Positions 1 to 23,825 of a stretch of 64,000 bases of DNA are shown one piece after another. Numbering within the stretch: position 1 is the stretch's first letter; every line of letters starts with the position of its first letter. The DNA lies in the NCBI RefSeq assembly GCF_003355515.1, contig NZ_CP031367.1, forward strand, positions 558,001 through 622,000, in the 5' to 3' direction. The notes under the pieces were generated by a model that was not told where the DNA came from, searched no databases, and was given only the letters and a program-made list of their open reading frames with translations. The DNA comes from Aliarcobacter trophiarum LMG 25534. GTDB lineage: Bacteria; Campylobacterota; Campylobacteria; Campylobacterales; Arcobacteraceae. The translations under genes were made by a program, and so were the position numbers.

Positions 1-594
1 GATAATATAAAAGATAATAAATATAATCCAAATGATTCTCAAAAATGGCATTTATACACGAGAGAAAGCCATTTGGAAAGAAACTATCCAAAAGTATTAA
101 TTCCCATGACAGCAAATGATGTCTATGCAAGTGTTACATTGAATGATTTTTATTATTGTGATAATTCTAATGTAAATTATACAGATATTCCTAATAAATC
201 TAAAGAAAATTTATATGCTGTTGCATCAATTTTTAATTCAACTATTTTTTCTGTATTAGCAAGAGCAATAGCAAATAAACAACAAAATGGTTACTATAAA
301 TTAAATAAACAATATATTGAACCTGTTTTATTTCCAGCATATATTTTTGAAAACAATCACCCATTTGTTAAAGAACTAGCTAGTGTTGGAATTAATATAG
401 AAGAAAAACAAAATGAATATATATATTCTCCACCTCTTAAGCAAAAAAAGATAAAACAAGAATTATCAAATCTATGGGATAAATTAGATAGTTTAACAGC
501 ACAAGCCTATAAATTAACAAAAGAACAAGAAGAATATTTTAATAGACTTGGTAGAAATATAAATCGTAATGATATTTTGGACAATATTTTATGA
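1..594 (+). CDS. C-terminal part of a DNA methyltransferase / type II R-M protein (5' end outside window)
   Basis: The frame is open from base 1, so this is the 3' end of a longer gene; the TTG at 73 is probably an internal codon. The segment LIPMTANDVYASV followed by an aromatic strand (NDFYYCDN) and then 'ASIFNSTIFSVLAR' resembles the C-terminal target-recognition region of Eco57I/TaqI-like N6-adenine methyltransferases. The tail is helical and charged (AYKLTKEQEEYFNRLGR). It overlaps the next methyltransferase gene by 4 bases (ATGA), so the two are translationally coupled. It lies in the cargo of the Tn7-like element. It could instead be the specificity half of a split type IIG enzyme; the catalytic part cannot be seen. 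Confidence 0.5.
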   Translation, partial: DNIKDNKYNPNDSQKWHLYTRESHLERNYPKVLIPMTANDVYASVTLNDFYYCDNSNVNYTDIPNKSKENLYAVASIFNSTIFSVLARAIANKQQNGYYKLNKQYIEPVLFPAYIFENNHPFVKELASVGINIEEKQNEYIYSPPLKQKKIKQELSNLWDKLDSLTAQAYKLTKEQEEYFNRLGRNINRNDILDNIL

Positions 595-2432
595 ATAAGC
601 AAATTAAAGAATATTTAAAAAATTATTCTAATGATTTAAATATAGTTAATAAATTGATTGTTTCAGCATATCTAGAATTTAATAACTTAAAAGCAATCAA
701 GAATAAACATATTCTCGAACTTTTAAGTGGTAATGATAAAAAAGAAATTGATAATTTTTTAAAGTTAATTTATAATCATTCTGAAATATTTAGTTTTGAG
801 GATGTAATAAATTTATTTGAAATAACAATTCCTTCAAGTGATATTGTAGTAAATGGTGCAATTTATACTCCAAAATATATTAGGGATTATATAATTAATA
901 ATTCAGTAAATAAGCTAGATATTAATGAAAGAATTAAAATTGCTGATATTGCATGTGGCTCTGGAGCATTTTTATATACAGTAGCTAAGTATTTAAAAGA
1001 AAAAACAAAATCTAGTTTGTTTGATATTTATAAAAAAAATATTTTTGGTTTAGATATAGCTGAATATGCTATTGAGAGAACAAAAATATTACTTACTTTA
1101 TATGCAATTACTTTGGGTGAAGATATAGAACAATTTGAATTTAATTTGTTTTCTGGAAATGCGTTAAGTTTCGATTGGAATGAAAAATATATAGGATTTA
1201 ATGGATTTGATTCAATAGTGGGAAATCCACCTTATGTTAGAACAAAAAACTTAGATAATGGGAGCAAAAGTCTTCTTAAAAATTGGAAGGTTGCAAACTC
1301 AGGTAATCCTGATTTATATATTCCTTTTTTTGAAATAGGTATAAAATATTTAAAAGAAAATGGTTATCTTGGATATATAACGATTAATACATTTAAAAAA
1401 AGTGTCAATGCAAGAGAGCTAAGAAAGTTTTTAAATAAAGAATCACTTAAATTAAGTATTTTAGATTTTGGAAGTTATCAAATATTTGATAATAAAATGA
1501 CATACACTTGTATAGTTTTAATTCAAAAGAATATATCAGAATACATTACTTATGCAAAAATATCACCTGATAGTATAAAGTTTTCTAGGAAGTTTAATTT
1601 TACAGAAATCGATTATAATATTTTAGATGACCATAAAGGTTGGTTACTTGCCGATGAAAATATTTTTAAGAATATTAATATTATTGAAAATACAGGTATT
1701 CCTCTAGGTAGAAAAAACTTAATAAAAAATGGTATAGCTACATTACAAAATAGCTTATATATTTTTAAACCTTATAAAGAGGATAAAAAGTATTTTTATA
1801 TGGAATATAATAACGAAGAATATAAGATTGAAAGAGCTATTTGTAGAGATATTATCAAGCCAAATAAGTTGAAAACTTCTGAAGAGATAGAAAAATTAAC
1901 TGAAAAGATAATTTTTCCATATAATGTTAAAAATAGGTTTGCTTCTGTTATAGATGAGTCTTTCTTAGAAAGTACATATCCATATACATATAAATATTTA
2001 TTAAAGCATAAAGATTTGCTTTTACAAAGAGATAAGAATAAAGATAAAAAATACAAATGGTTTGAATTCGGGAGAAGTCAATCTATAAATGATTACGGCA
2101 AAAAATTATTATTCCCATATATGTCAAATAAACCTTATTTTGTATATACAAACGACGAAAATTTAATGTTCTATGCTGGTTATGCAATATATGGAGAATC
2201 AGAAATAGAATTGAAGATTATTGAAAAGATTCTAAAATCTAAAGTTTTCTGGTACTATATTGAACACACAAGTAAACCATATTCATCTAAGTATTTTGCA
2301 TTAGCTAAAAATTATGTCAAAGACTTTGGAATTTGTGAACTTACTGATGATGAAAAAGTTTTTTTATTAAAACAAAATTCTAAAGATAAAATTGATAATT
2401 TTTTAATTTCAAAATATGGTATTTTAATATAG
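591..2432 (+). CDS. N6-adenine DNA methyltransferase, Eco57I-like
   Basis: This 613-residue protein has the order of a gamma-type adenine methylase. Motif X-like IYTPKYI is at about 91-97, the SAM-binding motif I (ADIACGSGAF) at 118-127, FGLDI at about 152-156, and the catalytic motif IV GNPPYV at 211-216. The remaining 400 residues would hold the target-recognition domain; AIYGESEIELKIIEKILKSK near residue 540 is typical of the TaqI/Eco57I C-terminal fold. No PD-(D/E)XK or helicase motif was seen, so it may only modify DNA. It starts at ATG 591 inside the stop of the previous gene. The role is probably restriction-modification carried as transposon cargo. Confidence 0.8.
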   Translation: MNKQIKEYLKNYSNDLNIVNKLIVSAYLEFNNLKAIKNKHILELLSGNDKKEIDNFLKLIYNHSEIFSFEDVINLFEITIPSSDIVVNGAIYTPKYIRDYIINNSVNKLDINERIKIADIACGSGAFLYTVAKYLKEKTKSSLFDIYKKNIFGLDIAEYAIERTKILLTLYAITLGEDIEQFEFNLFSGNALSFDWNEKYIGFNGFDSIVGNPPYVRTKNLDNGSKSLLKNWKVANSGNPDLYIPFFEIGIKYLKENGYLGYITINTFKKSVNARELRKFLNKESLKLSILDFGSYQIFDNKMTYTCIVLIQKNISEYITYAKISPDSIKFSRKFNFTEIDYNILDDHKGWLLADENIFKNINIIENTGIPLGRKNLIKNGIATLQNSLYIFKPYKEDKKYFYMEYNNEEYKIERAICRDIIKPNKLKTSEEIEKLTEKIIFPYNVKNRFASVIDESFLESTYPYTYKYLLKHKDLLLQRDKNKDKKYKWFEFGRSQSINDYGKKLLFPYMSNKPYFVYTNDENLMFYAGYAIYGESEIELKIIEKILKSKVFWYYIEHTSKPYSSKYFALAKNYVKDFGICELTDDEKVFLLKQNSKDKIDNFLISKYGILI

Positions 2433-2764
2433 ATAGATTAATTATAGTAATTTAAACTATTATAATTTTAATATAAAACTTACAAAAATTCTTTTTGAAC
2501 TCGATGTAAGAATTTTAAAAATTAATAATTTTACTTTAACAATTTAGTTAAATATATTTTAAACAAAGTTATTAATCTATGTTAATAATATTTATCAGCT
2601 TATATGATATACAATAATTAAAGATAATATATAGTATTTGATACTAATTTATGTAAAATTTAACACTAGTTTTATGTAGATATTATCAGAAATGTCATTT
2701 TTACTATAGGATAGCTTAAGTTTTTATGATAAAATTCTTCATACTAATTAATTAGGAATACAAT
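2433..2764. other. AT-rich non-coding stretch in transposon cargo
   Basis: This stretch has almost no G or C and no reading frame of useful length on either strand. The only readable signals are at its end: a possible -10 (TATGATAAA near 2727) and AGGA about 7 bases before the ATG at 2765. Together they suggest that the broken small gene that follows was once expressed from here. Confidence 0.4.
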
Positions 2765-3022
2765 ATGAATCACAAATATAAGATAGAAGTACCTACATAA
2801 CAAGGGTATAACCAAGTACTTATACTTAATCGTCAAAATATTATAAAATTAAAAGAACTTTTACTTAAAGGTGAAGGCACTCAATGTATAGGTTCGTATT
2901 CACTACGGGTAGAAAGTGATAGTTTAAGTTTGTATAAATATAAAAAGTTTGATGGTCCTTGTTATGTTATGAGTATAGAAGATACTTTGAAAGCAATTAA
3001 TGATATAGATTACAGTTTATGA
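2765..3022 (+). pseudogene. Small broken gene, 85 codons with one in-frame stop
   Basis: An ATG with an AGGA ribosome site begins a frame (MNHKYKIEVPT). TAA at 2798-2800 interrupts it, and the same frame then stays open to TGA at 3020-3022. The part after the stop reads as an ordinary soluble protein (QGYNQVLILNRQNIIKLKEL near the start, ending EDTLKAINDIDYSL). A single base change would restore it. I do not recognise the family. Either it is a decayed cargo gene, or the stop is a sequencing error; the lack of any good start codon after the stop makes an intact shorter gene unlikely. Confidence 0.4.
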
Positions 3023-3162
3023 ATATGAGCTATTTAATTAGGTATAATATATTCTATTGTTCACTTTCAATACTTTGTGATTTAATAATTGTAGTGCAAG
3101 AAGGTATTTATTGATTTTAAAATTATTTTTAGAATATGTAGATTTAAAAGGTTAATTAAGAT

Positions 3163-3708
3163 ATGAGAGTTTTAAAATATTTATTACTGTTCTTTGTACA
3201 ACTTGTAATAACATTCATATGTGTATTTTTTTCTATAATATTTATTGAAAATTATGTTGGGATAGCAACAACTATTAATCCTATGGATAGTGTTTCTTTA
3301 GCAAATACATTTATGGTATTTGTTACTTTTATCCTAGTTGGTGTTACTCTTGTAATAACACTTGCCAGTATTTGGTTTGCAAAAACTGTATCTGAAAAAA
3401 AGATAGATATAATAAGGGATAACATTAAGGAAATTGTTGAATCATTATTAACTAATAAGAATTTGCAAGATGGAGTATTTAAAGAAATAATAGAACAAGC
3501 AAACGTAAAAAAGACACTAGGAAAGCATATAGAAGAGCTGACAAAAGCACAAAGAGATGATTTTACTAATGAAATTGAAAATACAACTAAGAAATTGAAT
3601 GATGAAATTGAAAATATTCAAAAAAGTGTTATATCAATTATTGATAAAAAGATACAAGATTTACCAAAAGCAAATGAGTTAAATGAATTAATTGGAGGTA
3701 AAAAATAA
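3163..3708 (+). CDS. Two-pass membrane protein with cytoplasmic coiled coil
   Basis: Family not recognised. The 181-residue protein has two hydrophobic segments (about 4-28 and 48-73). A charged helical tail rich in E, K, I and N follows, with a likely coiled coil at about 125-165. The tail would point into the cytoplasm. TAA at 3706-3708 overlaps the ATG of the ImmA/IrrE gene (TAATG), and that gene overlaps the next, so three proteins are made from one message. A TATAAT-like box near 3042 may drive it. The layout (membrane anchor, metallopeptidase, nuclease-associated protein) suggests a defence or toxin-type cassette, but this is inference. Confidence 0.7.
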   Translation: MRVLKYLLLFFVQLVITFICVFFSIIFIENYVGIATTINPMDSVSLANTFMVFVTFILVGVTLVITLASIWFAKTVSEKKIDIIRDNIKEIVESLLTNKNLQDGVFKEIIEQANVKKTLGKHIEELTKAQRDDFTNEIENTTKKLNDEIENIQKSVISIIDKKIQDLPKANELNELIGGKK

Positions 3709-4280
3709 TGGAAAAGAAATATACTACTTTTTTAAATAAAACAACTTCAGCCTATGATTTATTAAAATATTTAGGAAGTCAATCAGATTTTAGTTTAAAA
3801 CTTCCAATAGATATTGAAGGAATTATAAAATATCTTAATATTAAATTAAGTAAAAATCCTAATTTTAAAAAAATAAAATTAGATGGAATGATAACTGTAA
3901 AAAATCAAGAACCAGAAATTTGGATAAATCCAATGAAAACACAATTTGAAGAAAGAATAAGATTTACTTTGGCTCATGAGTTAGGACATTTTATGTTGCA
4001 TATAGCCCCCGATAATAATTTAGGGAAAGATATAAGCATAGAAGATAATGAAGTAAGTTACAATAGAGATGATAACTGGAATCATATAGAAATGGAGGCA
4101 AATAACTTTGCATCACAATTACTTATGCCGTCATCTATGATTATAGAAGAAACAAAAAAAACATTACAAGAAAACCCTAATTTGAGTAAAGATGAAATTG
4201 TTGAAAAATTGGCATCAATCTTTGCTGTGTCTAATTTAGCTATGAAATATAGATTAAAAAAAATGGGAGTTAATATATGA
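3708..4280 (+). CDS. ImmA/IrrE family metallopeptidase
   Basis: The zinc-protease signature is clear: HELGH at 90-94 in the context RFTLAHELGHFMLH. A downstream EANNFASQLLMP block starts with the probable third ligand, E130. This is the standard ImmA/IrrE (DUF955) domain, and at 190 residues the protein is a stand-alone peptidase without an XRE domain. Known relatives cleave repressors or antitoxins (ImmA on ImmR, IrrE on DdrO) to release a response. It is coupled by overlaps to the membrane protein before it and the beta-like protein after it. Its likely substrate would be a partner in the same cassette, but none is evident, as no repressor is encoded nearby. Confidence 0.85.
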   Translation: MEKKYTTFLNKTTSAYDLLKYLGSQSDFSLKLPIDIEGIIKYLNIKLSKNPNFKKIKLDGMITVKNQEPEIWINPMKTQFEERIRFTLAHELGHFMLHIAPDNNLGKDISIEDNEVSYNRDDNWNHIEMEANNFASQLLMPSSMIIEETKKTLQENPNLSKDEIVEKLASIFAVSNLAMKYRLKKMGVNI

Positions 4281-5710
4281 GTTATATCGAGTTTAATTCA
4301 CCTACTATAGCTTTTGGGGAATCTAAAGTAATTATTATGTTAAATGGTGTGGGAATTGATTCTTTTGATATACCTGCACCAAATGTTGCAGAAAAAGCTA
4401 AAGAAAGCTTAGTGAGGGAAACTAATAGTTTTGAATATAATGATATTATTTATACTATAGAAATAAACTCATCAAATCTTGGAACATATGTTGTTATAGA
4501 AACAGAGTATGATACTGATGATATATACAATTTTGAGATATTTATTGATACTAAACAAGAATTTATCAATATGAAGCAAGAATTAGAAATATCATTGTAT
4601 GTTCCAGCACTTTCATATACTAATACCACATCTGCTGTTCTTTATGGGCAAATTAATAAAAATGTCATACCCTTAATAGATATAGAAACTGAGGATAAAT
4701 TTTTATCTTATTTAAATGACGAGCTTATTGTAGGATATAAACATTTATTAGATATTTCATCTATGAAAGAAATAACTAATAAAGAAGAGAGAGATAAAGC
4801 AAAATTAATTAGAAAACAAGAAAAAAAAGAATTTGGTAAAATGAATACACTTATTCCTAGTCCTATTGAAAAATTTATGCAACCTGAACATAAGACTAAT
4901 TACTTAAAAGAAATAATACACAAAGAAAATGTAATTCCAGTATTTAAATGGGATGAAAATAACGCTAATATAGATAAGTTGAAATCATTTGTTAGAGTTT
5001 TAATGAATGAATATGGTGAAATTGGGATTAGGGTCTCTGAAGTAACTAGTTTTTTTGAAAATATTGAAGAAATTTCAAAAATTCATGATATTAATTTAAT
5101 TTTAGATTTAAATACAAATTTTAATAGAACAGAAATAATAAATTATGTTAAAGAATCAATTAAATATTCTTTTATTAACATAATATACTTAGGTGCTCAA
5201 TTTAGTGCAGATGATATTTCTATATCAAAAAATGACACTAATAAAAACTTAATAAGTACAAACCAACCATTATTAGTTTTTAATTCTATAAAACAAGATG
5301 ATGGAATAAAAATAGATATAGGATTTGGTGATTATTGTGGATTTGACAAGAAAACTATAACTGAGTTGCCCTCAGGAGGAAGAGGAACAGCTCGTGTGGT
5401 ATTGAGTAGTATTGATAATTCTATGAAGTTCTTGGTAAGAAGAGGTTGGGATGAAAATGATATTTCACAAGATACAAAAACTGGTAAAACAAAAGTTGGA
5501 TATGGGCATTCTATGAGAAAATTATTAAAAGATATAGCTGAGGGTGAATTGGATGACCATTATGGTCAAAAATTTATGGATGAAAATCTATGTGATGCTG
5601 ATTTTTCATTAAAAAGTTATTATCCAGATATTACAACTCCAGGGATGATAAAAACTTTATGTTTTAGACATAATATTTTTTCTATTATTCATAATTTTAT
5701 GAAAAATTAA
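4277..5710 (+). CDS. Beta / sce7725-like protein
   Basis: The 477-residue protein has a beta-rich N-terminal part (1-130), a lysine- and glutamate-rich linker, and then a region (about 205-440) resembling the phage 'beta protein'/sce7725 family. That region shows VIPVFKWDENN, long alternating strands (INLILDLNT, INIIYLGAQ), a GFGDYCGF block and a glycine-rich turn (PSGGRGTARV). The biochemical function is unknown. It overlaps the ImmA/IrrE gene by 4 bases. Its stop overlaps by 3 bases the stop of the convergent sce7726-like gene, a pairing that fits known sce7725-sce7726 neighbours. The family call rests on pattern recognition only and is moderate. Confidence 0.5.
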   Translation: MSYIEFNSPTIAFGESKVIIMLNGVGIDSFDIPAPNVAEKAKESLVRETNSFEYNDIIYTIEINSSNLGTYVVIETEYDTDDIYNFEIFIDTKQEFINMKQELEISLYVPALSYTNTTSAVLYGQINKNVIPLIDIETEDKFLSYLNDELIVGYKHLLDISSMKEITNKEERDKAKLIRKQEKKEFGKMNTLIPSPIEKFMQPEHKTNYLKEIIHKENVIPVFKWDENNANIDKLKSFVRVLMNEYGEIGIRVSEVTSFFENIEEISKIHDINLILDLNTNFNRTEIINYVKESIKYSFINIIYLGAQFSADDISISKNDTNKNLISTNQPLLVFNSIKQDDGIKIDIGFGDYCGFDKKTITELPSGGRGTARVVLSSIDNSMKFLVRRGWDENDISQDTKTGKTKVGYGHSMRKLLKDIAEGELDDHYGQKFMDENLCDADFSLKSYYPDITTPGMIKTLCFRHNIFSIIHNFMKN

Positions 5711-6426
5711 TTAAAATCTTTAAAGATATAGGCTGGAAGATATTTTAGAGGGGTAATTCCCATATCTTCCAAATCTTTAAATCTTGAGAGTAAAGCTCTT
5801 TCATAATCTTTTTTTTCGATATAATCTTGTCTTTTTAAATGTTCTCTTATATACTTTTCTTTTAATCTAAATAAAGTTACTTTTCTAAGTTCATCTTCTG
5901 TTAGAACTTCTAAAATTTTGTTATATGCTTCATGACTTGAGTATTTATACCATTGCTCAAAATCTCTTAAACTTTCTCTTAATTCAATAGGACTCCAATA
6001 GGCTAAATAAAAATTTTTACCCACTTCAAATTTTCTACTATCTCTAATATGAGTAAGTCCATATCTACTGCTAACAGATATGACTCCAACTCCATCCATA
6101 AAATCTAAAGTATCAAGTTTGCTAATAAACTTTTCATCTGCAACTACTGTAACTTTATGTGCAAATTTTTTATAATCGCTTATCTGTTTTTCTAGCCTAA
6201 CTAAAGAATCAGCTTTTGATTTTATCTCATATATGTGAATATCTCCATTTGTTACTAATATATCTATAATACTATTTGGTAGTGATACCTCAGGTACAGC
6301 TATATATCTACCTTTTGTAGATTTATAAATATATTTCAATAAAGATATTTTAATTCTTTCTGCTTCTTTTAACTCATTTAATTTCATGGTTGGCATTGTA
6401 TCAAATTCATTCTTGTTTATATTCAT
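5707..6426 (-). CDS. sce7726 family protein, nuclease-like fold
   Basis: The core DILVTNGDIHIYEIKS, then DSLVRLEKQISDYKKF and KVTVVADEKF, matches the sce7726 family. The D...E-x-K arrangement is that of PD-(D/E)XK-type nucleases. The length from the ATG at 6426 is 239 residues. I prefer this ATG to the GTG at 6435 because GGAG lies 8 bases before it and overlaps the tnsF stop (TAG). The gene sits two bases after tnsF on a pure spacing basis, so it is transcribed with the transposition genes. It faces the beta/sce7725-like gene, which lies on the opposite strand. It may belong functionally to that protein rather than to transposition. Confidence 0.65.
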   Translation of the reverse strand: MNINKNEFDTMPTMKLNELKEAERIKISLLKYIYKSTKGRYIAVPEVSLPNSIIDILVTNGDIHIYEIKSKADSLVRLEKQISDYKKFAHKVTVVADEKFISKLDTLDFMDGVGVISVSSRYGLTHIRDSRKFEVGKNFYLAYWSPIELRESLRDFEQWYKYSSHEAYNKILEVLTEDELRKVTLFRLKEKYIREHLKRQDYIEKKDYERALLSRFKDLEDMGITPLKYLPAYIFKDFN

Positions 6427-6437
6427 TATAATCACTC

Positions 6438-7883
6438 CTATTCAATATAAATTTTATATTTATTAATTAAAATATATTTATTATTATGTTCATTACTTTT
6501 AATATTATTAATACTTATAAATAAATTTGTTGGAACTTTAATATCATGAAGATAGCCAATAAGTGTTCTATAATATAATTGTTCTTTGTTTTGTGGAATT
6601 TTTGGTAGCCTCATTAAATCTAGCAATCTCTGTTTTAGTATTGTTTTTGAAGTTGATGTTTTTTTGAATTTGAATGGCTTGATATTTATAAGTGAAACAT
6701 CTATCTTTTTTTCATTTCTTAAAAAATTTATAAATCCAGTTATTGCAGCTTTTTGACCAGAATAAAGCCATAAATAACCTTCGAGTAAAAAAGTTGATGG
6801 TCTATTGTTTTTAAAATTTTCACAATATTCTAAAAATTTAATAGCAGGAGTAAGAGATAACCTTATACTTCGTATTGTAGTTTTATTTTGCTCTAATTTC
6901 TCTAATAAATATTTATAATAGTCTTCTATTAAAATTCTATTTTTGCTACCCTTTGGGAAATTATCTAAATATTTATTAATCATATCAAGATTTGCCTGTT
7001 TTTCTTTCACTTCTAAATTTATATTTATAATATTTTGCTCATCTAAGAAAGAAGTTACTAATAGATATTCTCTAGTAGTTGCAACAGTAAAATTTGATAC
7101 AATTTCATCATAAGTTGGAACTCTTTTTAGGTTTAATGCTAATTCATCTAACATAAAAAAGTATTTAAAATAATGCTGTATTTTAAGAGATGCGAAATTA
7201 CTATCTCTTTTTTGAAGAAGCCACTTACTAAAACTTATAAAACTATCTTTGAAATAATTAGATAATGCTTTAGATAATTTATTAACTTTATTGTTTAAAG
7301 TTTTTAAATTATTGCAATTACGACAAATATTCCCATAACCTGCAGGTATTAAACTATTACATGTTTTGCATTCTTTAAAGCCTTGTTCATAGCAAATTTT
7401 ACATATAGCATTTTTGTTGTCATCATAACTATGTGCTTCTCTTCTATAGCTACAAGAACTACAAATAGGAAGAGTTTTATTGTAACAAGAAGTACATAAC
7501 ATTTTTATATGTCCATCTTTTAATTTACGATTTGAAACATTGATTTTTTCTTTATTACAATTACTGCAACATTTTAATTTACTATAATATTTCGCACATG
7601 ATTTACAAACAACGCCATTTTTAAGTATTTTTCCAATAGAAAAATCTTTTTTGTCACATCTACTACAGGGAAGATTAGCTACTTCACAAAACTTGCATAT
7701 ATGGTTTTCTGAGTATTTATGAATTTTTTTAGTTTTATTACACTTTATACATTTTTTACTAATAAAATATTTTTCATAACAGCTTCGGCAATAATGTTTT
7801 TCTTTATATCTATAATCCCAATTTGTTAAATTTTTGTTACAAAAGTCACAAGTTCTTGCAAAAATTCTAAATTTTACAGACAA
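6438..7883 (-). CDS. tnsF: TnsF-like target selector (zinc ribbons plus inactive tyrosine-recombinase-like domain)
   Basis: Residues 12-190 hold twelve CxxC pairs (12/15, 32/35, 45/48, 63/66, 73/76, 93/96, 106/109, 130/133, 141/144, 161/164, 172/175, 187/190), enough for about six zinc modules. From about 315 comes a helical region like the core-binding domain of tyrosine recombinases (LLEKLEQNKTTIRSIRLSL, KFLEYC, AAITGFINFLRNEKK). The protein ends before a full catalytic domain, and no R-H-R-Y set is present. Published Tn6022-like elements use TnsF, with an inactivated tyrosine recombinase domain, to insert in comM; position and target here agree. Start is TTG 7883, overlapping the end of tniQ, with GAGG 10 bases before it. 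Confidence 0.7.
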   Translation of the reverse strand: MSVKFRIFARTCDFCNKNLTNWDYRYKEKHYCRSCYEKYFISKKCIKCNKTKKIHKYSENHICKFCEVANLPCSRCDKKDFSIGKILKNGVVCKSCAKYYSKLKCCSNCNKEKINVSNRKLKDGHIKMLCTSCYNKTLPICSSCSYRREAHSYDDNKNAICKICYEQGFKECKTCNSLIPAGYGNICRNCNNLKTLNNKVNKLSKALSNYFKDSFISFSKWLLQKRDSNFASLKIQHYFKYFFMLDELALNLKRVPTYDEIVSNFTVATTREYLLVTSFLDEQNIININLEVKEKQANLDMINKYLDNFPKGSKNRILIEDYYKYLLEKLEQNKTTIRSIRLSLTPAIKFLEYCENFKNNRPSTFLLEGYLWLYSGQKAAITGFINFLRNEKKIDVSLINIKPFKFKKTSTSKTILKQRLLDLMRLPKIPQNKEQLYYRTLIGYLHDIKVPTNLFISINNIKSNEHNNKYILINKYKIYIE

Positions 7884-8950
7884 GATTTTAGTTCCTCTAA
7901 TAAAATTTTCACCTCTTCTTTACTTTTTGGAGTAATTTCTTTGGTACTAACTACATCTTTATTTTTTGAATTTACTTTAAGATTTTTAGTAATATAGTCT
8001 ATTGTTTTTGAAGATAGAGTACTTTGTTTAGCTACTAATTTATATGTAAAATCTAATTCTTCAAAAATCTTTTTTATATCTTCTATTTTTAGGCTGAATA
8101 GTCTTGAAACTAAAAGTAAGTAAAATTCTCTAGCTTTTAATTCCATATCTTCAAAATTATCTGAGGTTTTAATCTCTTCTAGTTGTTTTTTAAGATGTTC
8201 TAAATTTAGTTTTTTTAGAAAAGTTGTGCTTTTGTTTGTTTTCATCAAAGCTCTTAAAAAAGATAGTAAAATTCTTAAAGTTTTAAATAGTTCTTCTAGG
8301 TTTAACTCAATCAAGGGAAATTTTTTATCTATATTTTCGTTAAAAATGGCATTGTTTAATTTTTCTTGGAAAATATAGACCTCTTCATTTGCTCTTTTCA
8401 TATTAGATTCTCGCAAGTCATATTCACAATTAGTACATAAAAATGGTTTAGCTTCATCGAATGTAATTTTATATGGAGTAAAGTTTGTCTCACATTTTTG
8501 GCATTTTTGAAGTAGATTTATTTTATGAATTGAACAAGAAGTGTTCCATGCTAATCTAAATTCTCTTCTTAAGCTGAATTCTTTTTCATTTTTTAAGCAT
8601 AATGGGCAAAAATATGTTCCATTTCTTCTATAAGTACCTCGTTGCCCCGTACTAATTATAAAAGTCCAAGCCTTTTTATAATTTAGCTTATCATTACCAA
8701 TTATTTTTTTATAAAGAGGTTCTAGTGTCATATTTTTTAATTCTTGAAAAGATTTATTACAACCTTTTACAAGTTTATGAACCTCTTCATCTTCAATAAA
8801 TCTATCAGGGTCTTTACTCCAAAATTTATTATCATTAAAAATCATAGTAGCCCAACTGCTAGGTTCACTACCATTTATAATAGAGCTTCTAATAAGCCAA
8901 GAGCTTAAAATTTCATTATTGTAGATTTGAGGTTCAATTAGTATTTTCAT
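7874..8950 (-). CDS. tniQ: TniQ/TnsD-like transposition protein
   Basis: The 358-residue TniQ-type protein shows the family's usual opening (PQIYNNEILSSWLIRSS) and two zinc-finger sets. One is C115/C118 with C139/H142 and the other is C150/C153 with C172/C175; the SLRREFRLAW segment lies between. TniQ proteins connect the target selector with the TnsC ATPase. It lacks the long DNA-binding C-terminal part of Tn7 TnsD, so it would rely on a separate selector, here the TnsF-like protein. ATG 8950 overlaps the tnsC stop (ATGA), and its end overlaps the start of tnsF. Confidence 0.88.
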   Translation of the reverse strand: MKILIEPQIYNNEILSSWLIRSSIINGSEPSSWATMIFNDNKFWSKDPDRFIEDEEVHKLVKGCNKSFQELKNMTLEPLYKKIIGNDKLNYKKAWTFIISTGQRGTYRRNGTYFCPLCLKNEKEFSLRREFRLAWNTSCSIHKINLLQKCQKCETNFTPYKITFDEAKPFLCTNCEYDLRESNMKRANEEVYIFQEKLNNAIFNENIDKKFPLIELNLEELFKTLRILLSFLRALMKTNKSTTFLKKLNLEHLKKQLEEIKTSDNFEDMELKAREFYLLLVSRLFSLKIEDIKKIFEELDFTYKLVAKQSTLSSKTIDYITKNLKVNSKNKDVVSTKEITPKSKEEVKILLEELKSCL

Positions 8951-9858
8951 GATTTTAATTTAATCTCTCTAGGAACTAATCTACTTGTTGGTTTAAAATC
9001 TTTGAATTTTTTTATTATATCAATAGTAATTTCTTCAAAATTATGTTCTATTGCATATTTTGAACAAGCTACAATTAATTTATGTAAATCTCCTAAATTA
9101 CCTTGTGAAATATTATAAAGTAGTGTACATTTATCTTGTTCTGCCAAATTAGATGGTTTTTCCAATGGTAAATATTTTTCAAAAGCTTTTACAAGTCCCC
9201 TAAAAGAAGTGTCTAACTCCCATGAGTCTAGCCTTATAATATCAAATCTACTACTTAATTGAGGGTCTGTTCCTAAAATTAAAGCTGCATCTTTAATTCC
9301 TACACCTATAATTGGTATTTGAAGTTTTGTTCCAATATTCTTTAGAGCTTGAATAACATCTCTTTGTTGAGCTGGAGTACCATTTAAGAAATGATGAATT
9401 TCATCAATTATAAGTAAATTAACTTTACACTCATTCATTAGTGAAAACATCTGGTGTCTTAATTGTGCCAATGTATTATTAGGATTATGGTAGGTATAGA
9501 ATGCTTCTAATATAGCAATATATAAATCTTTTTCACTAGCTTTTGTATGAGCTGTTGCTAAAATAACTGGTCTATAAGGAATACTATAACCATTTTCATC
9601 TTCAAGTTCTTCAGAACTATATTTATTATAAAACTTATTTAAAATAGATGTTTTACCTATATTTGGTTCTCCAATTAATAATAAATTTGGCATTCTAGGT
9701 CTTTTTGGAGTTTTCATCATTTGTTCAAAAATTTGCATAAGTTCTTTTGTTCTAGGATAATCTATAAAAATTGGGCTTTCCAAATAAAATAATTTATCAT
9801 CTTTGCTTGAAAATAATATATCAATAGTCTCTTGATTTAGATGTTTATATTCTTTCAT
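8947..9858 (-). CDS. tnsC: TnsC AAA+ transposition regulator
   Basis: This AAA+ ATPase has Walker A GEPNIGKT at 63-70 and Walker B LLIIDE at 148-153, followed by HHFLNG. A later LSSRFDIIRL holds a sensor/arginine-finger region. At 303 residues it is closer to the short TniB/TnsC type than to Tn7 TnsC (555). TnsC polymerises on target DNA, receives the TniQ/selector signal and activates the TnsA-TnsB transposase. It sits nine bases after tnsB in a tight operon. Confidence 0.9.
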   Translation of the reverse strand: MKEYKHLNQETIDILFSSKDDKLFYLESPIFIDYPRTKELMQIFEQMMKTPKRPRMPNLLLIGEPNIGKTSILNKFYNKYSSEELEDENGYSIPYRPVILATAHTKASEKDLYIAILEAFYTYHNPNNTLAQLRHQMFSLMNECKVNLLIIDEIHHFLNGTPAQQRDVIQALKNIGTKLQIPIIGVGIKDAALILGTDPQLSSRFDIIRLDSWELDTSFRGLVKAFEKYLPLEKPSNLAEQDKCTLLYNISQGNLGDLHKLIVACSKYAIEHNFEEITIDIIKKFKDFKPTSRLVPREIKLKS

Positions 9859-9867
9859 TGCTTCTCC

Positions 9868-11763
9868 TTAGAAATCTGGAATATCATCTTCCCAAAAACT
9901 TTCATTTTTAGAAAAATTATTCTCTGTCTGTTTGATATTAATACTAGTATTCTGATTTATTCTTTGCTCTTGTTCTTTTAATTCAATATTTTTATTTTTT
10001 AATCTTTGACTATCTCTTCTTGCCTTTTTGCTACTTTTTACAGATTGTTCTATTTGTTTATGTAGCTCTTCTCTTGCTTCTAAAATTGCATCTTGATTTA
10101 CTCTTTTTAACCCTTTATTCTTTAATTCTGTTTTTATTAAATCAAATTCCCAAGCAGTCATAGATGGCATATTCTGATTTGCAACATTTATTTTAAAATA
10201 CTCTTGTGTAGTTTCTTCGTAAAACCAAATATAACTAATATCCCTAGGGTCTCTTTTAAATATAAATTGTTTTTTCTTACCATTTTCCATTTGATTTATC
10301 TTTGTTCTTAATACATGGTCATAATAATTTAAACCTTCAATATTAACACCATTTTTTTGTATAGTTCTTTCATAAATTGGTAAAAAATCTAAAATAATAC
10401 TACTATTATTGCTTGGTTTTTGAATAAATCCTATTCCAGACTCATCTGCAAATAGACCTTCTTCCCATTGTTGTTCTGGTGATAGAGAAAGGCTACTGTG
10501 AATTCTTTTGTGATATATTTTAGTTATAAATGTAAGTATCCATTTCTCAAATTCAGAAAATGTCATACTAGCATTTGCATCAGAATTGTATTCTCCTCTT
10601 TGTTTTATATTTGAGAAAGTAGTACCTGGTAAATTATGAATTTCATGCATTAAAGTTCCTATTACTCTTTCAATGTGTCCACCAAAATTTGCTCTTCCTA
10701 CAGGTCTAAATTCTATATTAATTCCATGTGCTAAACCAGCTCTTTTGACTGCATCTGCCCTAAAATCTGCACCATTATCAACATGAATTGTCTCTGGATA
10801 ACCCCAAACATTCCAATTTGAGTTAATATCAAATTTACTTAATAATAAATCTTTAGGTAAAATAGCATTTGATACACACATTCCAACAGATGTCACACTA
10901 GGTGCATTCATTGATAAATAATAACCAACTATCATTCTACTATAAATGTCAATTGCAAGAGTAATCCAAGGTCTTCCTATAGGTAGTCTATGTTCATCAT
11001 CAACTAAAATAATATCACAAGGAGTGTGGTCTATTTCAATAAGTTGTAAAGGGTAATCTGCTTCAAATTTATTTGGAGCAGGTTCATATTTAGTTTTAGC
11101 TAAACCTCTACTTCCATGTTTTAATAATTTTTCATATTCTGATACTTCATTTATTCTATTTCTAATAGTATTTGAATGAGGAGCTACAATATTTAATCTT
11201 TTACATTCTGATAAAACTTTATTTACAACTGATTGAATTGATGGTTTTTGGATTGTAAGATAGTAGTTTTCTATGATTTTTCTTATTATTATTTCAATTT
11301 CAGAATCTAATCTTTTAGAACCTTTTCTTACTCCAACTTTGTTTGAAATAAGACCTAGAATTGTTCCTGTTGATTTGTATTTCTCTTGCCACCTATATAA
11401 TGTTGTAAAATGTATGCCTAAGTTTTTTGAGTATTGAACAGCTTCTTGCCTTGATAGTTTTTTTTCCAAAAGAGGTAAGATTGCTTTATATCTTCTTTGA
11501 GCTTCTAAATATTCTTCATCTTCAATATTATTTATGTCTTTTGATATTGATTCAGCATTTATATTTTTATCTGATTCAATTGAGGATAAATCTTTAATTG
11601 GTAAAAGTTCAGCTTTTTTAGTCTTTGTATTTGTACCAACAACTTCGTCAAAATTTAGAATTTGAGTAATTTTATAAACAGACTTTTTATATTGAACATA
11701 AGAATTTGGTTTTATATCGATTCTGCTTCTGTCTAGTTTTATACTAGTTTCTTTATTTAACAT
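9868..11763 (-). CDS. tnsB: TnsB DDE transposase
   Basis: The 631-residue Mu/TnsB-type transposase has the DDE triad D245 (LIEIDHT), D329 (TIHVDNGADF) and E365 (GGHIERVIGT). N-terminal helix-turn-helix segments (about 105-130 and 170-205) would bind the end repeats, and a Mu-type C-terminal beta domain follows. It joins the transposon 3' ends to the target. It starts at ATG 11763, one base after the tnsA stop, with GGAG inside the end of tnsA. Its charged tail (residues 570-631) is where relatives contact TnsC. Confidence 0.93.
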   Translation of the reverse strand: MLNKETSIKLDRSRIDIKPNSYVQYKKSVYKITQILNFDEVVGTNTKTKKAELLPIKDLSSIESDKNINAESISKDINNIEDEEYLEAQRRYKAILPLLEKKLSRQEAVQYSKNLGIHFTTLYRWQEKYKSTGTILGLISNKVGVRKGSKRLDSEIEIIIRKIIENYYLTIQKPSIQSVVNKVLSECKRLNIVAPHSNTIRNRINEVSEYEKLLKHGSRGLAKTKYEPAPNKFEADYPLQLIEIDHTPCDIILVDDEHRLPIGRPWITLAIDIYSRMIVGYYLSMNAPSVTSVGMCVSNAILPKDLLLSKFDINSNWNVWGYPETIHVDNGADFRADAVKRAGLAHGINIEFRPVGRANFGGHIERVIGTLMHEIHNLPGTTFSNIKQRGEYNSDANASMTFSEFEKWILTFITKIYHKRIHSSLSLSPEQQWEEGLFADESGIGFIQKPSNNSSIILDFLPIYERTIQKNGVNIEGLNYYDHVLRTKINQMENGKKKQFIFKRDPRDISYIWFYEETTQEYFKINVANQNMPSMTAWEFDLIKTELKNKGLKRVNQDAILEAREELHKQIEQSVKSSKKARRDSQRLKNKNIELKEQEQRINQNTSINIKQTENNFSKNESFWEDDIPDF

Positions 11764-11764
11764 A

Positions 11765-12487
11765 TTATTTCTCCTCTAAAAAATTAATATAGCTAGGATG
11801 CTCATAATTAATCCATATTTTTGTCTGAAAATCTAATCTTTGACTTATATCAGCATTTAAAATTTTATTTGCAATCAAATGGTAGATTACTCCTGTTGCC
11901 AGTTTTCTATCTAGAACTCCACCTCTAAATTTAAATACTACCAATTCATCTATTGTTGAATGACCTCCTAGTGCTTCTAAACCAATAAAAACCCATTCTT
12001 TCCACCACCATTCAGTTTCCATATTTTTATATCTATTTAATAGCTGAATTCTTTTTAAATAAGGAGTTCTAATTCTAGTTTCATCAAATATTTTGAATTT
12101 CATATCATTTGATTTTGCATATTTTGTAGCAATTTGGAATTTAGGTTTTAAAATATTCCATTTCTTTATTAATATATCTCTAGGTTTTACTTCAATCAGC
12201 AAAGGCTTTCTGCTAACGCTTGTTATATTTGTAAGTTCATTTGGGTCATTAAATAGAACTAAAAAATCAGGTGTATATGTTACTTCTCTTGAATTTTTAT
12301 TTATATATTCTATAGTGATAGGTTGTTCTGTTACATCAAAAACACTAGAGTTGAATTCTAAAATAGTTAATAAATCTCTCTCTAGTGTAGATTCAAAAGC
12401 AATGCTTTTTTCTTTTCTAAAAGCATAATGACCAGATACACTACTGTATGTGTATCCAATTTTTCTATTTTTCATAGAAATTCTCAA
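11765..12487 (-). CDS. tnsA: TnsA endonuclease
   Basis: This restriction-enzyme-fold nuclease cuts the 5' ends of the element, so transposition is cut-and-paste. The active-site set is present: E36 (FESTLERD), D74 (YTPDFLV) and E99-x-K101 (LLIEVKPRD). The C-terminal winged-helix part is seen at about 150-230. The 240-residue length is slightly below Tn7 TnsA (273). The start is TTG 12487, because AAGGAG lies 6 bases before it; the ATG at 12475 is 18 bases away from that site. The gene begins about 150 bases from the transposon end, so its promoter overlaps the putative TnsB sites. Confidence 0.9.
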   Translation of the reverse strand: MRISMKNRKIGYTYSSVSGHYAFRKEKSIAFESTLERDLLTILEFNSSVFDVTEQPITIEYINKNSREVTYTPDFLVLFNDPNELTNITSVSRKPLLIEVKPRDILIKKWNILKPKFQIATKYAKSNDMKFKIFDETRIRTPYLKRIQLLNRYKNMETEWWWKEWVFIGLEALGGHSTIDELVVFKFRGGVLDRKLATGVIYHLIANKILNADISQRLDFQTKIWINYEHPSYINFLEEK

Positions 12488-12499
12488 TTCTATCTCCTT

Positions 12500-12628
12500 A
12501 ATAAGTTTGTACTATCATTTAATATAAATTAGTAGTATTGTAGCATAAATTAATGTAAATAGTACTATTAAATATTATAAAATATTGCTCAAAATATCGA
12601 TTATATCATGCGAATAGTAGCATTATTT
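12500..12628 (-). repeat. Four putative TnsB-binding repeats at the right end
   Basis: Four 21-base direct repeats at 12500-12520, 12531-12551, 12553-12573 and 12608-12628 share the plus-strand core TNGTASYATNANNT; R1 and R2 match at about 15 of 21 places. In Tn7 the right end likewise carries four TnsB sites. The inner repeats lie just before tnsA and could allow TnsB to repress its own operon. The outermost one supplies the ATG at 12608 of the comM remnant. Confidence 0.6.
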
Positions 12629-13282
12629 ACTAGTAATGTCAGTGGAAGCTCAAATGCAAAAATGGGTGAAGTGGCTTTAAGTAATCATGGAGTTCTATTC
12701 TTTGATGAGTTGCCACACTTTCCTAGCAATATTTTAGAAGCTTTAAGAGAGCCACTTGAAGATAATAAAATATTAATTTCAAGAGTAAATAGTAAGATTT
12801 TGTATGAGACAAAATTTATTTTTGTAAGTGCTATGAATCCATGCCCTTGTGGAAATAAACTGTCAAGTATGAAAGAGTGTAGATGTAGCGATTTTGAAAT
12901 CCAAAGATATAAAAATCGACTTAGTGAGCCATTTTTAGACAGGATTGACTTATATGTTGTTATGAATGATAGTTTTAGTGATAATAAAAATGTTGTAGGC
13001 TCACAAGAACTTCATGAAAGTGTAATAAAAGCATTTCAAAGACAAAAAAATAGAGGTCAAAAGGAGTTAAATGGGAAATTAAGTGATAAGGATATAAAAA
13101 AATATTGTATTTTAGATGATGAGAGCCATGAAATACTTGAAAAAGCTAGAGTAAACTATGCATTATCATTTAGAAGTATAAATAAAGTTTTAAAAGTAGC
13201 AAGAACAATAGCAGATATAAATGAACATGAAATTATTCAAAAAGGTGATTTACTAAAAAGTTTAAATTTTAGAAAAAGATAG
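12608..13282 (+). pseudogene. comM: comM 3' fragment (transposon-interrupted Mg-chelatase-like ATPase)
   Basis: This is the C-terminal part of the YifB/ComM AAA+ family. It has the Walker B region NHGVLFFDELPHF, NSKILYETKFIFVSAMNPCPCG with its CPCG zinc motif, and FLDRIDLYV. The Walker A part is missing, lying beyond the left end of the transposon. Codons before about 12642 (MRIVALFTSNV) come from the transposon end, not from comM. ComM is a helicase used for branch migration in natural transformation, so the host should be impaired in that step unless a second copy exists. The C-terminal Mg_chelatase_C helices (SFRSINKVLKVARTIAD) are intact. Confidence 0.9.
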
Positions 13283-18933: not shown

Positions 18934-18950
18934 ATTTAATGGAGATAATT

Positions 18951-21900
18951 ATGGCAAATTTGGCAAAAATACAATCAATTGCACAGGGGCAATTTTTTGT
19001 AAAAGATTCTCTAGGAAATTTTGTTGAGTTAAAGATTGGTGATACTATATCATTAAATGATATAGTAGTAGCTGCAAATTCAAATACAGATTTATCAAAA
19101 ATTGAAATACTTTTTGATACAAACGAACTTGTAGTATTAAATCAAGGTGAAACTCTACTAGATGAAACATTACTTGCAAGTACTTTTGGAAATGAAGAGT
19201 TGGCATTTGAGAAAAATGGATTAGATGAAACTCTAAACGCTTGGAATAATACAGATGGTAATATAGATGATATGGAAACAGCAGCAGGTGATGTAACAGA
19301 ACAAGCAACAAATGCTGGAAATGAAGAAGCTGCAGATGGTGGAGCTTTAAGAAGTAAGTTTAACTCAAGAGATGGTGACTCTGCTGATATTGTGAGTGAT
19401 TTAAGAGATACTTCTTTTGGTGGTACTACTACACAAGAACCACAAGAGCAAATTCCAACTGAGCTTTTAAATCCAACTGCCACTACACCAGTAGCTCCTA
19501 CAACTCCAATTATACCAGTAGATACAACAGCAACACCAGCACCAACAGTAGTAATAACTGAAGATGTAAATAATGATGGACTAATCTCAAAAGCTGAATT
19601 AGATGGAAAAGTAGATGTAACAATTACAGTTCCAACAGAAGCAAATGTAGGTGATACATTAAATGTTACAAACCCAGATGGAACAATTACAACTGTAGAA
19701 ATTACAGCTGATATAAAAACAAATGGATATAAAACATCATATGATGCACCAGCAGAAGGTGGAACAATCACTGTAAGTGCAACAATTACAGATAAAGCAG
19801 GAAATACTTCAGCAGAAGGTAAAGATAGTGCAGTATTAGATACAACAACAGACTATACATTAACATCGACAGCAAGTGGAGATGAAGAAAATGCATCTAT
19901 TACGTATACAGTAACATTTACAAATCCAACAACACAAGCAGAAACAGTAACATTCAAAGTTGGAAATGAGACAATAACAATTGATGTACCAGCAAATAGT
20001 ACAGGAGCTTCAAAAACAGTTTCTTATGCAGATGCAGCAAAAGATTATTATCAAGATGTAACAAATGTTCCAGCACCAACAGATTTAAGTTCAACAAATA
20101 ATTCAAAATTTGAAGATTTAAATCCAGTAAATAATGCGGAAGAAAAATTGTTTGAAGATCATAAAGATACAACAACAGTAACAATAGAGGCTGTAAAAGT
20201 AACAGATAAAGTAATTACAAAAGATAATCTTGAAAATAATCAAGGATTTACTGTAAAAGCAAAAGATCCATATGGAAATGATGCAAAAATTTCTACACAT
20301 ACTGGACCTTCAGGATTTGGAGTTGAAAGTCTTGCTGAGACAACTTCAGGTAAATTAGGTCAAACTGATAAGGTATATAGTGGACATACAAGTGAAATTG
20401 GAGTAGTAAAAGATGGAAGCACATATAAAAGTGAAAGTATAGAGGTTGAGTTTAAAAATCCTATTCAAACTTTAGATGTTGCATTTGCTTGGAGACATAA
20501 TGGAGAGACTGCTAGAGTAGATTTCTATAATGGAAATGAGAAAGTGGGATATGCAATAGTTAGTGGTGGAGGAAATGATGTAGATGCAATAATTAAATAC
20601 TACGATAAAAATGGAAAACTTAAAGAAACAGTAAAAGCACAAGGTGGTACGGATAATGTAGATTTAGTTTATACATTTAAGCCAGCAGGAGATAAAACAT
20701 TTACAAAAGCAGTATTTAGTGCAGAAGGGGCAGGAAGCGATTATTTAATCCACTCTATAAGCTATAAAGAGGTAAGCGATGGAGATAATACAACTATTGT
20801 AGGAAGTGATGAAGTAGCATTTAAAATATCTACATCAAATATACCAGATCCTTCTAAATATGATTTTAAAACAACTTTCCCAACAGCAGATGTAAAAATT
20901 GTAGATGATAGTGGAAAAGTAGTATTTGAAGGTACTGTAAATTTAGATAAAAATGGTAATGCAATAGTAACGGTAAGAACAGATGGAACAAAAGATTTAA
21001 AAGCGGAAGTTTCAAATGTACAAGGTAACTTTGAAGCAGTAGATTATGAAAATGCTAAAATAGAAGTAGAATCTTCAATAAAAGCAACAGCTTCAAATGA
21101 TAGTTTTACTACTTTAGAAGATACTAACTATATTTTAAAAACTACAGACTTTGGAGATAATAGTAAAAATGTTGCAAAAATCAAGTTTGATAGTGTTCCA
21201 GAAAATGGAAAAGTTTATGTACTAAAATCTGAATATACAGGTTCTATGAATGATAGAGCAGAATATACAAGTAGTGAAAATAAAGTGTATATTGAAGTAA
21301 AAGCAGGAGATATTGTAGATATTTCAAAAATAGAAAATGGTAATGTAGTTTTTGTACCAAATAAAGATACAGATGAAGATGGAAGCTTTAATTTTAGTGT
21401 AAGTAATGGAAATGGAAATTTTAGTGAAAGTTATGAAACAAAAGTAAATGTTACAGCTGTTGCTGATGCACCAGAAGTAAGTATTAATATAACAAAAGTT
21501 GGGATAGTTACTGAAGGAGAAAATGAGCCTTCATCAAATGGAATAAAAGTAGACTATGGTGATGTTACTTTGGATTCGAAAAATACTACAATTACGCATG
21601 GTATTGACACAAGTGTTGATGTAAGTTCAGGTAAGTTTGGTGGTTCTTTGACAACAAGTAATAGTAGTGATACTATAAAAGTTGGTCATATGACAGGTTC
21701 TATAAATGGTGGTTTAGGGCAAGATACTTTAATCTTGGGTGGAAATAAAGCAGATTATCTTATTACTATTCAAAGTAGTAAAGAAGTTATATCATATGAT
21801 CAATGGAAAGAGTACAATGATAAAAATCCAGATAATGGAATATCATATGAATTTAAAAATTCTAAAACAGGGGAAGATTTTACTGTTGCAAATATTGAGA

Positions 21901-23825
21901 AAATAAATTTTGCAGATAGTGGAAAATCTTTTGATGTTTACAATGTAGATATTAGTGCATCTTTAAATGATAAAGATGGAAGTGAAACATTAACTGTAGT
22001 TATTAAAGGAGTACCAGATGGAGCTAAACTATATGATTTAAATGGGGAACAGGTTTTCACTATTAATGGAGAATATAATGTAACAGTTCCAAATGGAGCA
22101 AAAGATATTTTAGGCTCTCTTACTATGAAAGTTCCAGAAAGTTATAAAGGTGAGATAAATCTTCAAATAGAAGCAACTGCAACAGAGAAAAATGATAATA
22201 CTGATGGTAAGAATTTTGCAACTGCAGAAGATACGTCTCATATTGATACTCCAACAATAAAAGTAGATCCAAATACTCCAAACAGTATAAATGGTGGAAG
22301 TGGAGATGACATTTTAATAGGTGATACAGGAGGGGCTTCTAAAAATATAATTGCAGGTAAAAATTATAATATTGCTTTAGTTGTAGATACTTCAGGAAGT
22401 ATGGTAGAATCTTCTGGTTCTAAAACAGCTTGGGGAACAACAATTAGTAGATTAGATTTACTAAAAGATTCTCTTAAAAATCTAGCTAATAGTTTAAAAG
22501 GACATGATGGAAAAGTAAATGTTTCGATTATAGGCTTTAGTGCAAAGGCTGATGAACCTATCACATTTAATGATTTAACGTCAGAAAATATTAGTGATTT
22601 AATAGCAAAAATAGATGCACTAAAAGCAGAAGGTGGTACAAACTATGAAGATGCATTCTTAAAAACTACAAGTTGGTTTAATACTCAAAATGTAACTTAT
22701 GGAAAAGCACAAGGTTATGAGAATTTAACATATTTCCTAACAGATGGAGATCCAACTGTTAGTAATAGTGATAATTCAAAAGGAGCAACAACAGAATATG
22801 GTGATATGAAAAATGCTGTTGATGCATTTAAAACATTAAGTGGTCAAAGTACTGTTCATGCAATAGGTATAGGTAATGGTATAAATGAGAATTATTTAAG
22901 ATTTTTTGATAATACAGATATTATAGGAAAAGGAGATGTGAGTTTTGGTTCTTGGTTCTGGCAACAAACAGTGTCTGGTAATATTGGAAAACCTGATATT
23001 GTAAATACTGCAGAGGATTTAAAAGCAGCTTTACAAGGTGGTTCTGTATCTGAAGATATATTAGATGTTGGTTCAGATATTACAAATGGTGGTGCTGGTG
23101 ATGATATAATCTTTGGTGACAGTATAAATACAGATAATCTTTTATGGAATGGAAGATTTACAGAAGGTCACAAAGATTATATGATAAAAGGACAAGGAAT
23201 AAATGCACTTGATAAATTCCTAAGCCTTACAAAAGATGGTTATTCATCTATGAGTGAAGCTGATAAAAATATGGCAAAATATGACTATATTAAAGAACAT
23301 CATAAAGAGTTAAATGTTGATGGTGATACAAGAGGTGGAGATGATATTTTAAGTGGTGGTGAAGGAAGAGACATCATATATGGTCAAGGTGGAGATGACA
23401 CTATTATTACAGATATTAATACTAATAATGGCAAAGCAGATGGTGATATTTTAATTGATGGTGGAGCTGGTTTTGATACGGTTAAACTAGAAGGAAATAG
23501 CAATATAGATTTCTCAAAATTAGAAGATTTAAGTATCACAAATATAGAAGCTATAGATCTTAGAGATGGAGATCATAGTCTTACAAATATTAGATTAGAA
23601 GATGTACTAAAAATGACTGACAATAATAATGAACTTATTATTTTAGGAGATGATAAAGATAGTATATTATTTAAAGATACTATTGGAGAAAATGGAGAAA
23701 AACAAACTTGGTCTAAAACAGCTGGAGAAGGTGAAGATAAAGGGTTTGATATTTATGTAAATAGTGGAGATCCAACAGTTCAAGTTAAGGTTGAACAACC
23801 AATTTCAGATGGGATTACAAACTAA
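18951..23825 (+). CDS. Large RTX-type adhesin with retention module and VWA domain
   Basis: The 1,624-residue acidic protein is without cysteine-rich parts and fits a type I secreted surface adhesin (LapA/BapA/FrhA-like). About 1-90 is a retention module (AKIQSIAQGQFFVKDS, then IGDTISLNDIVVAA). A Thr/Pro linker and Ig-like beta domains follow (about 195-400), then a VEFKNPIQTLDVAFAWRHNG domain (about 430-610), a cadherin-like block (700-840) and a VWA domain (about 1140-1330, MIDAS DTSGS). Calcium-binding GGxGxD repeats lie around 1114, 1378 and 1461-1487. The C-terminus should carry the secretion signal. No TolC/LapB/LapC homologue is in the window. ATG 18951 is chosen because of GGAG 6 bases upstream. 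Confidence 0.85.
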   Translation: MANLAKIQSIAQGQFFVKDSLGNFVELKIGDTISLNDIVVAANSNTDLSKIEILFDTNELVVLNQGETLLDETLLASTFGNEELAFEKNGLDETLNAWNNTDGNIDDMETAAGDVTEQATNAGNEEAADGGALRSKFNSRDGDSADIVSDLRDTSFGGTTTQEPQEQIPTELLNPTATTPVAPTTPIIPVDTTATPAPTVVITEDVNNDGLISKAELDGKVDVTITVPTEANVGDTLNVTNPDGTITTVEITADIKTNGYKTSYDAPAEGGTITVSATITDKAGNTSAEGKDSAVLDTTTDYTLTSTASGDEENASITYTVTFTNPTTQAETVTFKVGNETITIDVPANSTGASKTVSYADAAKDYYQDVTNVPAPTDLSSTNNSKFEDLNPVNNAEEKLFEDHKDTTTVTIEAVKVTDKVITKDNLENNQGFTVKAKDPYGNDAKISTHTGPSGFGVESLAETTSGKLGQTDKVYSGHTSEIGVVKDGSTYKSESIEVEFKNPIQTLDVAFAWRHNGETARVDFYNGNEKVGYAIVSGGGNDVDAIIKYYDKNGKLKETVKAQGGTDNVDLVYTFKPAGDKTFTKAVFSAEGAGSDYLIHSISYKEVSDGDNTTIVGSDEVAFKISTSNIPDPSKYDFKTTFPTADVKIVDDSGKVVFEGTVNLDKNGNAIVTVRTDGTKDLKAEVSNVQGNFEAVDYENAKIEVESSIKATASNDSFTTLEDTNYILKTTDFGDNSKNVAKIKFDSVPENGKVYVLKSEYTGSMNDRAEYTSSENKVYIEVKAGDIVDISKIENGNVVFVPNKDTDEDGSFNFSVSNGNGNFSESYETKVNVTAVADAPEVSINITKVGIVTEGENEPSSNGIKVDYGDVTLDSKNTTITHGIDTSVDVSSGKFGGSLTTSNSSDTIKVGHMTGSINGGLGQDTLILGGNKADYLITIQSSKEVISYDQWKEYNDKNPDNGISYEFKNSKTGEDFTVANIEKINFADSGKSFDVYNVDISASLNDKDGSETLTVVIKGVPDGAKLYDLNGEQVFTINGEYNVTVPNGAKDILGSLTMKVPESYKGEINLQIEATATEKNDNTDGKNFATAEDTSHIDTPTIKVDPNTPNSINGGSGDDILIGDTGGASKNIIAGKNYNIALVVDTSGSMVESSGSKTAWGTTISRLDLLKDSLKNLANSLKGHDGKVNVSIIGFSAKADEPITFNDLTSENISDLIAKIDALKAEGGTNYEDAFLKTTSWFNTQNVTYGKAQGYENLTYFLTDGDPTVSNSDNSKGATTEYGDMKNAVDAFKTLSGQSTVHAIGIGNGINENYLRFFDNTDIIGKGDVSFGSWFWQQTVSGNIGKPDIVNTAEDLKAALQGGSVSEDILDVGSDITNGGAGDDIIFGDSINTDNLLWNGRFTEGHKDYMIKGQGINALDKFLSLTKDGYSSMSEADKNMAKYDYIKEHHKELNVDGDTRGGDDILSGGEGRDIIYGQGGDDTIITDINTNNGKADGDILIDGGAGFDTVKLEGNSNIDFSKLEDLSITNIEAIDLRDGDHSLTNIRLEDVLKMTDNNNELIILGDDKDSILFKDTIGENGEKQTWSKTAGEGEDKGFDIYVNSGDPTVQVKVEQPISDGITN

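Follow-up and report, generated by a model that had tools for sequence, protein, structure and literature searches.

The closest described relatives of the protein studied here are the TnsF proteins of Tn6022-type transposons. AjTnsF, the TnsF of the Acinetobacter johnsonii element AjTn6022, is a protein of 498 aa that carries zinc fingers in its first 199 residues, followed by CB1, CB2 and pCAT, the last of which comprises only the final ~70 aa and is without a catalytic chamber (Faure et al. 2023, PMC10293859). That AjTnsF is needed for transposition and binds comM DNA has been demonstrated with transposition and gel-shift assays and by pull-down (PMC10293859). The same study describes a TnsF-like protein of Tsy elements, which has a zinc array, core-binding domains and insertion in comM in common with TnsF. 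The gene content and the comM target published for Tn6022 match those of the element analysed here (PMC10293859).

The window analysed is a stretch of 64,000 nucleotides from Aliarcobacter trophiarum LMG 25534 (NZ_CP031367.1, positions 558,001 to 622,000). A complete Tn6022-like (Tn7-like) transposon sits in the comM gene of this Arcobacteraceae chromosome. The element is 22,119 bp long and extends from C1:548523 in the genome to window position 12641. Its operon is complete and has the order tnsA-tnsB-tnsC-tniQ-tnsF, with all five genes on the minus strand: the tnsA endonuclease gene (11765..12487; Pfam Tn7_TnsA-like_N, E 3.1e-18), tnsB for a DDE transposase with rve and Mu-transpos_C domains (9868..11763), tnsC for a TniB-type AAA ATPase (8947..9858; Pfam TniB, E 2.4e-56), a short tniQ (7874..8950; 358 aa, Pfam TniQ, E 9.5e-21) and tnsF (6438..7883). 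The right end with its terminal inverted repeat lies at 12488..12641, the outermost base being 12641, and 22/26 positions of the repeat are identical between the left and the right ends. The 3' part of comM (12642..13282, plus strand) starts from ComM codon 291/292, and its first bases are the target-site duplication GTGGA (12642..12646, plus strand), the second copy of which is found at C1:548518-548522, to the left of the window. The 5' part of comM is about 22 kb away; it lies beyond the window, as do the left end and tnsE. Joining the two flanks restores the comM reading frame (...IFGGG/SSNAKMGEVALSNHGVLFFDELP...). The Walker B core follows 56 bp after the insertion at codon 291/292. A TnsE-like gene is present in the cargo on the opposite strand (L008:7035-8831), with a match to PF18623 (TnsE_C, E 2.3e-5) which we regard as real although its 24.7 bits fall just below the curated Pfam gathering cut-off of 26.7.

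The cargo half of the element within the window (1..6435) contains restriction-modification/methylase, ImmA/IrrE-type peptidase and sce7726-family genes and one for an unassigned protein of 477 aa. Window positions 1-2432 together with L008 8985-13933 encode a Type IIG restriction-modification enzyme of 1036 aa and, after it, a second Eco57I-like methylase of 613 aa. The sce7726-family gene (5707-6435) lies 2 nt downstream of tnsF, and opposite to it, at 3163-5710, lie genes for a membrane protein, the ImmA/IrrE-type peptidase (capP-like according to PADLOC) and the 477-aa protein, which belongs to no family. The sce7726 gene and the genes facing it (3163-6435) are possibly an unassigned defence-like cargo set. 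In the left part of the element (L008 4140-5323) a lookalike of an IS3-type two-frame transposase was recognised by eye. Outside the transposon, at window positions 18939-23825, there is a repetitive protein of 1,628 aa, which on visual inspection looks like a large VWA-domain surface adhesin.

The tnsF gene starts with TTG, overlaps the end of tniQ by 10 nt and codes for a protein of 481 aa. Twenty-four of its 26 cysteines fall within twelve CxxC pairs in the first 190 residues, at positions 12, 32, 45, 63, 73, 93, 106, 130, 141, 161, 172 and 187. The initial annotation had called the protein a divergent TnsF with twelve such pairs, and both this count and the coordinates were correct. When the first 200 residues, a stretch which is itself rich in cysteine, were shuffled 20,000 times, the mean number of pairs was 2.6 and the maximum 8. 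Grouped by the spacing of the pairs, residues 12-190 form six LIM-like zinc modules, M1-M6, which are followed by a putative CB1 (about 212-306), by CB2 (about 304-405) and by a putative pCAT (about 405-481). The shortness of the C-terminus, earlier put at about 80 residues, holds as well, since about 76-80 residues are left after the core-binding domain ends at about 405. No model of Pfam or NCBIfam matched the protein, and phmmer against PDB sequences returned chance matches only.

Homology searches placed the protein among known TnsFs. By tblastn it matched Acinetobacter TnsF with 28-29% identity over 91-94% of its length (E 3e-43 for A. baumannii, 91%), and overall the identity to Acinetobacter TnsF is 24-29% over >90% of the length. 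When genome contigs were scanned with A1, an alignment of five TnsFs, 20 loci were obtained. Searches of genomes of the phylum added six campylobacterotal genomes with a long TnsF (G026, G055, G242, G342, G401 and G464), besides G125, in which TnsF is cut by the contig end, and G117, which carries a remnant of 196 aa; the two sets overlap, G026 being the Arcobacter caeni locus L017 and G342 the SZUA-451 locus L016. Every full-length TnsF found carries twelve pairs, spaced almost identically; the sources include, among others, Acinetobacter, Alcaligenaceae, Mariprofundaceae and Sulfurovum. The relatives which bear the twelve pairs show 24-43% identity. In L016 and L053 the count is thirteen, the additional pair being located before the likely start codon. 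Across the rows of alignment A3 that have the array, the CxxC columns show no or almost no variation. The idea that twelve pairs are an unusual feature was therefore rejected. Since the layout is that of AjTnsF and the full-length homologues have the same twelve pairs, the architecture of the 481-aa protein is ordinary, neither extreme nor divergent. With it, a target selector already published is now seen in an Arcobacteraceae element as well; the finding itself is ordinary.

The AlphaFold2 model of TnsF, built on alignment A3, had a pLDDT of 88.8, and a separate model of residues 300-481 (CB2 and pCAT) had one of 90.8. The leading Foldseek matches of the zinc array were LIM domains (7d2t, E 3.8e-3), and the integron integrase 2a3v was also on the list (E 0.086). 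VIA-align of the whole model gave Z 7.0 to IntI4 2a3v (residues 314-405) and Z 6.2 to XerH (309-399), and with the CB2 and pCAT model Z was 8.0 for XerD, 7.5 for XerA, 7.3 for IntI4 and 6.6 for XerH, all over residues of about 304-401; these are moderate scores, the tool's own caution line being 8. Tyrosine recombinases took up almost all of the 27 top-ranking rows of the latter search. The initial annotation had expected a comparison with XerC/XerD-type recombinases to return a core-binding domain, and the XerD, XerA, IntI4 and XerH matches over residues 304-401 are of this kind. LIM, IntI4 and XerH are also the families that published work names for TnsF (PMC10293859). Two helical domains are visible in the whole model, and the recombinase matches of both searches came from CB2 only, which as modelled takes the recombinase core-binding fold. 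The pCAT stretch was modelled as helices and then three strands; neither VIA run returned a recombinase catalytic-domain match for it, a null result which is not evidence of absence. As only about 76 residues follow CB2, the protein has no complete catalytic domain.

Taken together, the protein is almost certainly TnsF, the target selector of a complete Tn6022-like transposon, and an ordinary member of its family. The sequences and models show the architecture, the operon, the ends, the duplication and the split of comM, together with the fold of CB2 and a conserved helix in TniQ, and the name TnsF given earlier is borne out by gene order, insertion in comM, homology to Acinetobacter TnsF and the core-binding fold matches. 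The further suggestion that this is an extreme form with a decayed recombinase part, the zinc array having taken over target reading, is improbable. Speaking for it, the twelve pairs and the catalytic remnant of about 80 residues are truly present, and among full-length relatives M1-M3 are conserved at least as well as the remainder (without Cys, 25-42% identity in most rows, the lowest being 15). However, the same pairs and the same short C-terminus are present in all full-length TnsFs and likewise in AjTnsF, CB2 belongs to the best conserved stretches of the protein (31-52%) and takes the core-binding fold, and relatives without M1-M3 are still inserted in comM.

Two further readings bring in other protein families. 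The zinc array, the core-binding domains and the insertion in comM are common to the Tsy proteins, so that a Tsy-type protein acting as an active tyrosine recombinase for a non-Tn7 element could be imagined; but the roughly 76 residues past CB2 leave no space for a catalytic domain, the tnsABC-tniQ operon is complete, the ends are of Tn7 type with a 5-bp duplication and no YRec gene was seen in the operon, which makes this reading exceedingly unlikely. There is equally little to recommend a LIM- or RING-like zinc protein unrelated to TnsF and adjoining tniQ by chance. Eukaryotic LIM domains are indeed the best Foldseek matches of the array; however, similarity to LIM is a published property of the TnsF array, detected via HHpred (PMC10293859), and full-length TnsF homology is found in the same operon slot in several proteobacterial and campylobacterotal lineages.

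For the ordinary TnsF that we favour, DNA binding, docking with TniQ and the requirement for the protein are carried over from the published Acinetobacter element. By analogy with AjTnsF, this catalytically dead relative of tyrosine recombinases would bind comM around the conserved Walker B. As in AjTn6022, it would pass the site to TniQ via pCAT, on which the C-terminal helix of TniQ is expected to dock; a helix of the PKSKEEV type is kept at the C-terminus of TniQ in most relatives. TniQ would then recruit TnsC and TnsAB, and the element could be inserted at ComM codon 291/292, duplicating 5 bp.

Codon 291/292 is the site of every full-length element with a readable junction, namely this element, three other Campylobacterota, Acinetobacter and Alcaligenaceae. 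In this element and the three other Campylobacterota the duplications are GTGGA, GGGGA, GTGGA and GCGGC. Elements with shorter arrays are found elsewhere in the gene. G055 (L010/L035) has M4-M6 only and is inserted at ComM codon 359/360 with CCTTG on both sides, and G464 (L056/L059) has M3-M6 and is inserted at 370/371 with CAGAT. In Arcobacter caeni G026 (L009/L036), which has M4-M6, the left half of comM ends at codon 360 with CCTTG, the right half starts at 371 with GCAGA, and codons 361-370 are absent from the halves. A second tnsA and a truncated tnsB lie at L009 16740-18445, beside the intact operon. As the duplications differ and the additional genes lie at the right half, this locus is two tandem comM elements that have merged. 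In G117 (L057 7462-9197, L060) the insertion is at codon 370/371 (GCAGA), and the TnsF of 196 aa resembles CB2 and pCAT and lacks both zinc modules and CB1. Since it has lost the conserved CB2 motifs and may be the product of a decaying gene, it was left out of the evidence on array and site.

The shifted insertions are about 200-235 bp downstream of the canonical comM site, on the far side of Walker B at a distance of about 140 bp or more. In G055, G026 and G464 the canonical site is present without interruption, and in G117 it has a small in-frame gap. It was considered whether the short arrays are annotation errors, and this was rejected, as in G026, G055 and G464 the start of tnsF overlaps the stop of tniQ by 4 nt (ATGA) and tniQ is of normal length. 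A second Walker-B-like motif was not found near the shifted comM sites, the sole strong match being that to Walker B itself, which lies about 140 bp before one of these sites. Short-array TnsFs and shifted comM sites go unmentioned in the main text of PMC10293859, and the pairing of array shortening with site shift in Campylobacterota may be new.

In the TnsB tree this element is sister to G464 plus the pair of G117 and the G026 remnant (support 100/99), and the intact operon of G026 and G055 form another clade (100/100). For the shared TnsF part, the AU test rejected a single clade of the short-array proteins (p 0.003), and the tree of this part gave a count of two changes of array length. 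Array shortening arose at least twice, and in two lineages it coincides with a change of site. Two coinciding events are too few to prove a cause. The site shift could come from changes in TniQ, TnsC or the CB domains, and array shortening could follow the shift. It is tentatively proposed, with somewhat less than even confidence, that the number of zinc modules in TnsF helps to set the landing site in comM, six modules leading to codon 291/292 and loss of M1-M3 or M1-M2 leading, in Campylobacterota, to 359/360 or 370/371. As relatives with half an array are still in comM, at other positions, the array may influence the exact site and is not the sole source of comM specificity. If the proposal is true, the zinc array would be a module that sets the register of insertion and not the only reader of comM. 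By the TnsB tree, the element described here is the closest relative with full array and canonical site of a lineage with shortened array and moved insertion. The role of the array can thus be tested directly by swapping natural parts, and it bears on the re-aiming of Tn7-type insertion tools.

Compared with known systems, the protein is like the TnsF of Tn6022 (orf3/tniE; AjTn6022 of A. johnsonii and homologues in A. baumannii) in having the zinc array and CB2 and, putatively, CB1 and a pCAT of ~70-80 aa, and the A. baumannii Tn6022-type homologues share the twelve CxxC pairs. The overlap with tniQ, the order tnsABC-tniQ-tnsF, the tnsE on the other strand and the comM codon are also those of the Acinetobacter Tn6022 elements. 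The differences from the latter lie in the low protein identity (24-29%), the host phylum, Campylobacterota, and the cargo. Within the phylum, the TnsFs of Sulfurovum sp. SZUA-1512 (L015), G242, G342 (SZUA-451) and G401 have the full array of twelve pairs as here; those of SZUA-1512 and SZUA-451 (L016) show 36-43% identity to this TnsF, and ComM codon 291/292 is the site in G242, G342 and G401, whose junctions are readable, the contig of L015 being too short to show comM. The short-array TnsFs of A. caeni G026, G055 and G464 resemble this one in operon, overlap with tniQ, putative CB1-CB2-pCAT architecture and insertion in comM but have 6 or 8 CxxC pairs only and lie at ComM codon 359/360 or 370/371. 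The TnsF-like protein of Tsy (ZooTsy) has the zinc array, the core-binding domains and the comM target in common with this TnsF; unlike it, the Tsy protein has an active catalytic domain and works with YRec, without Tn7 genes.
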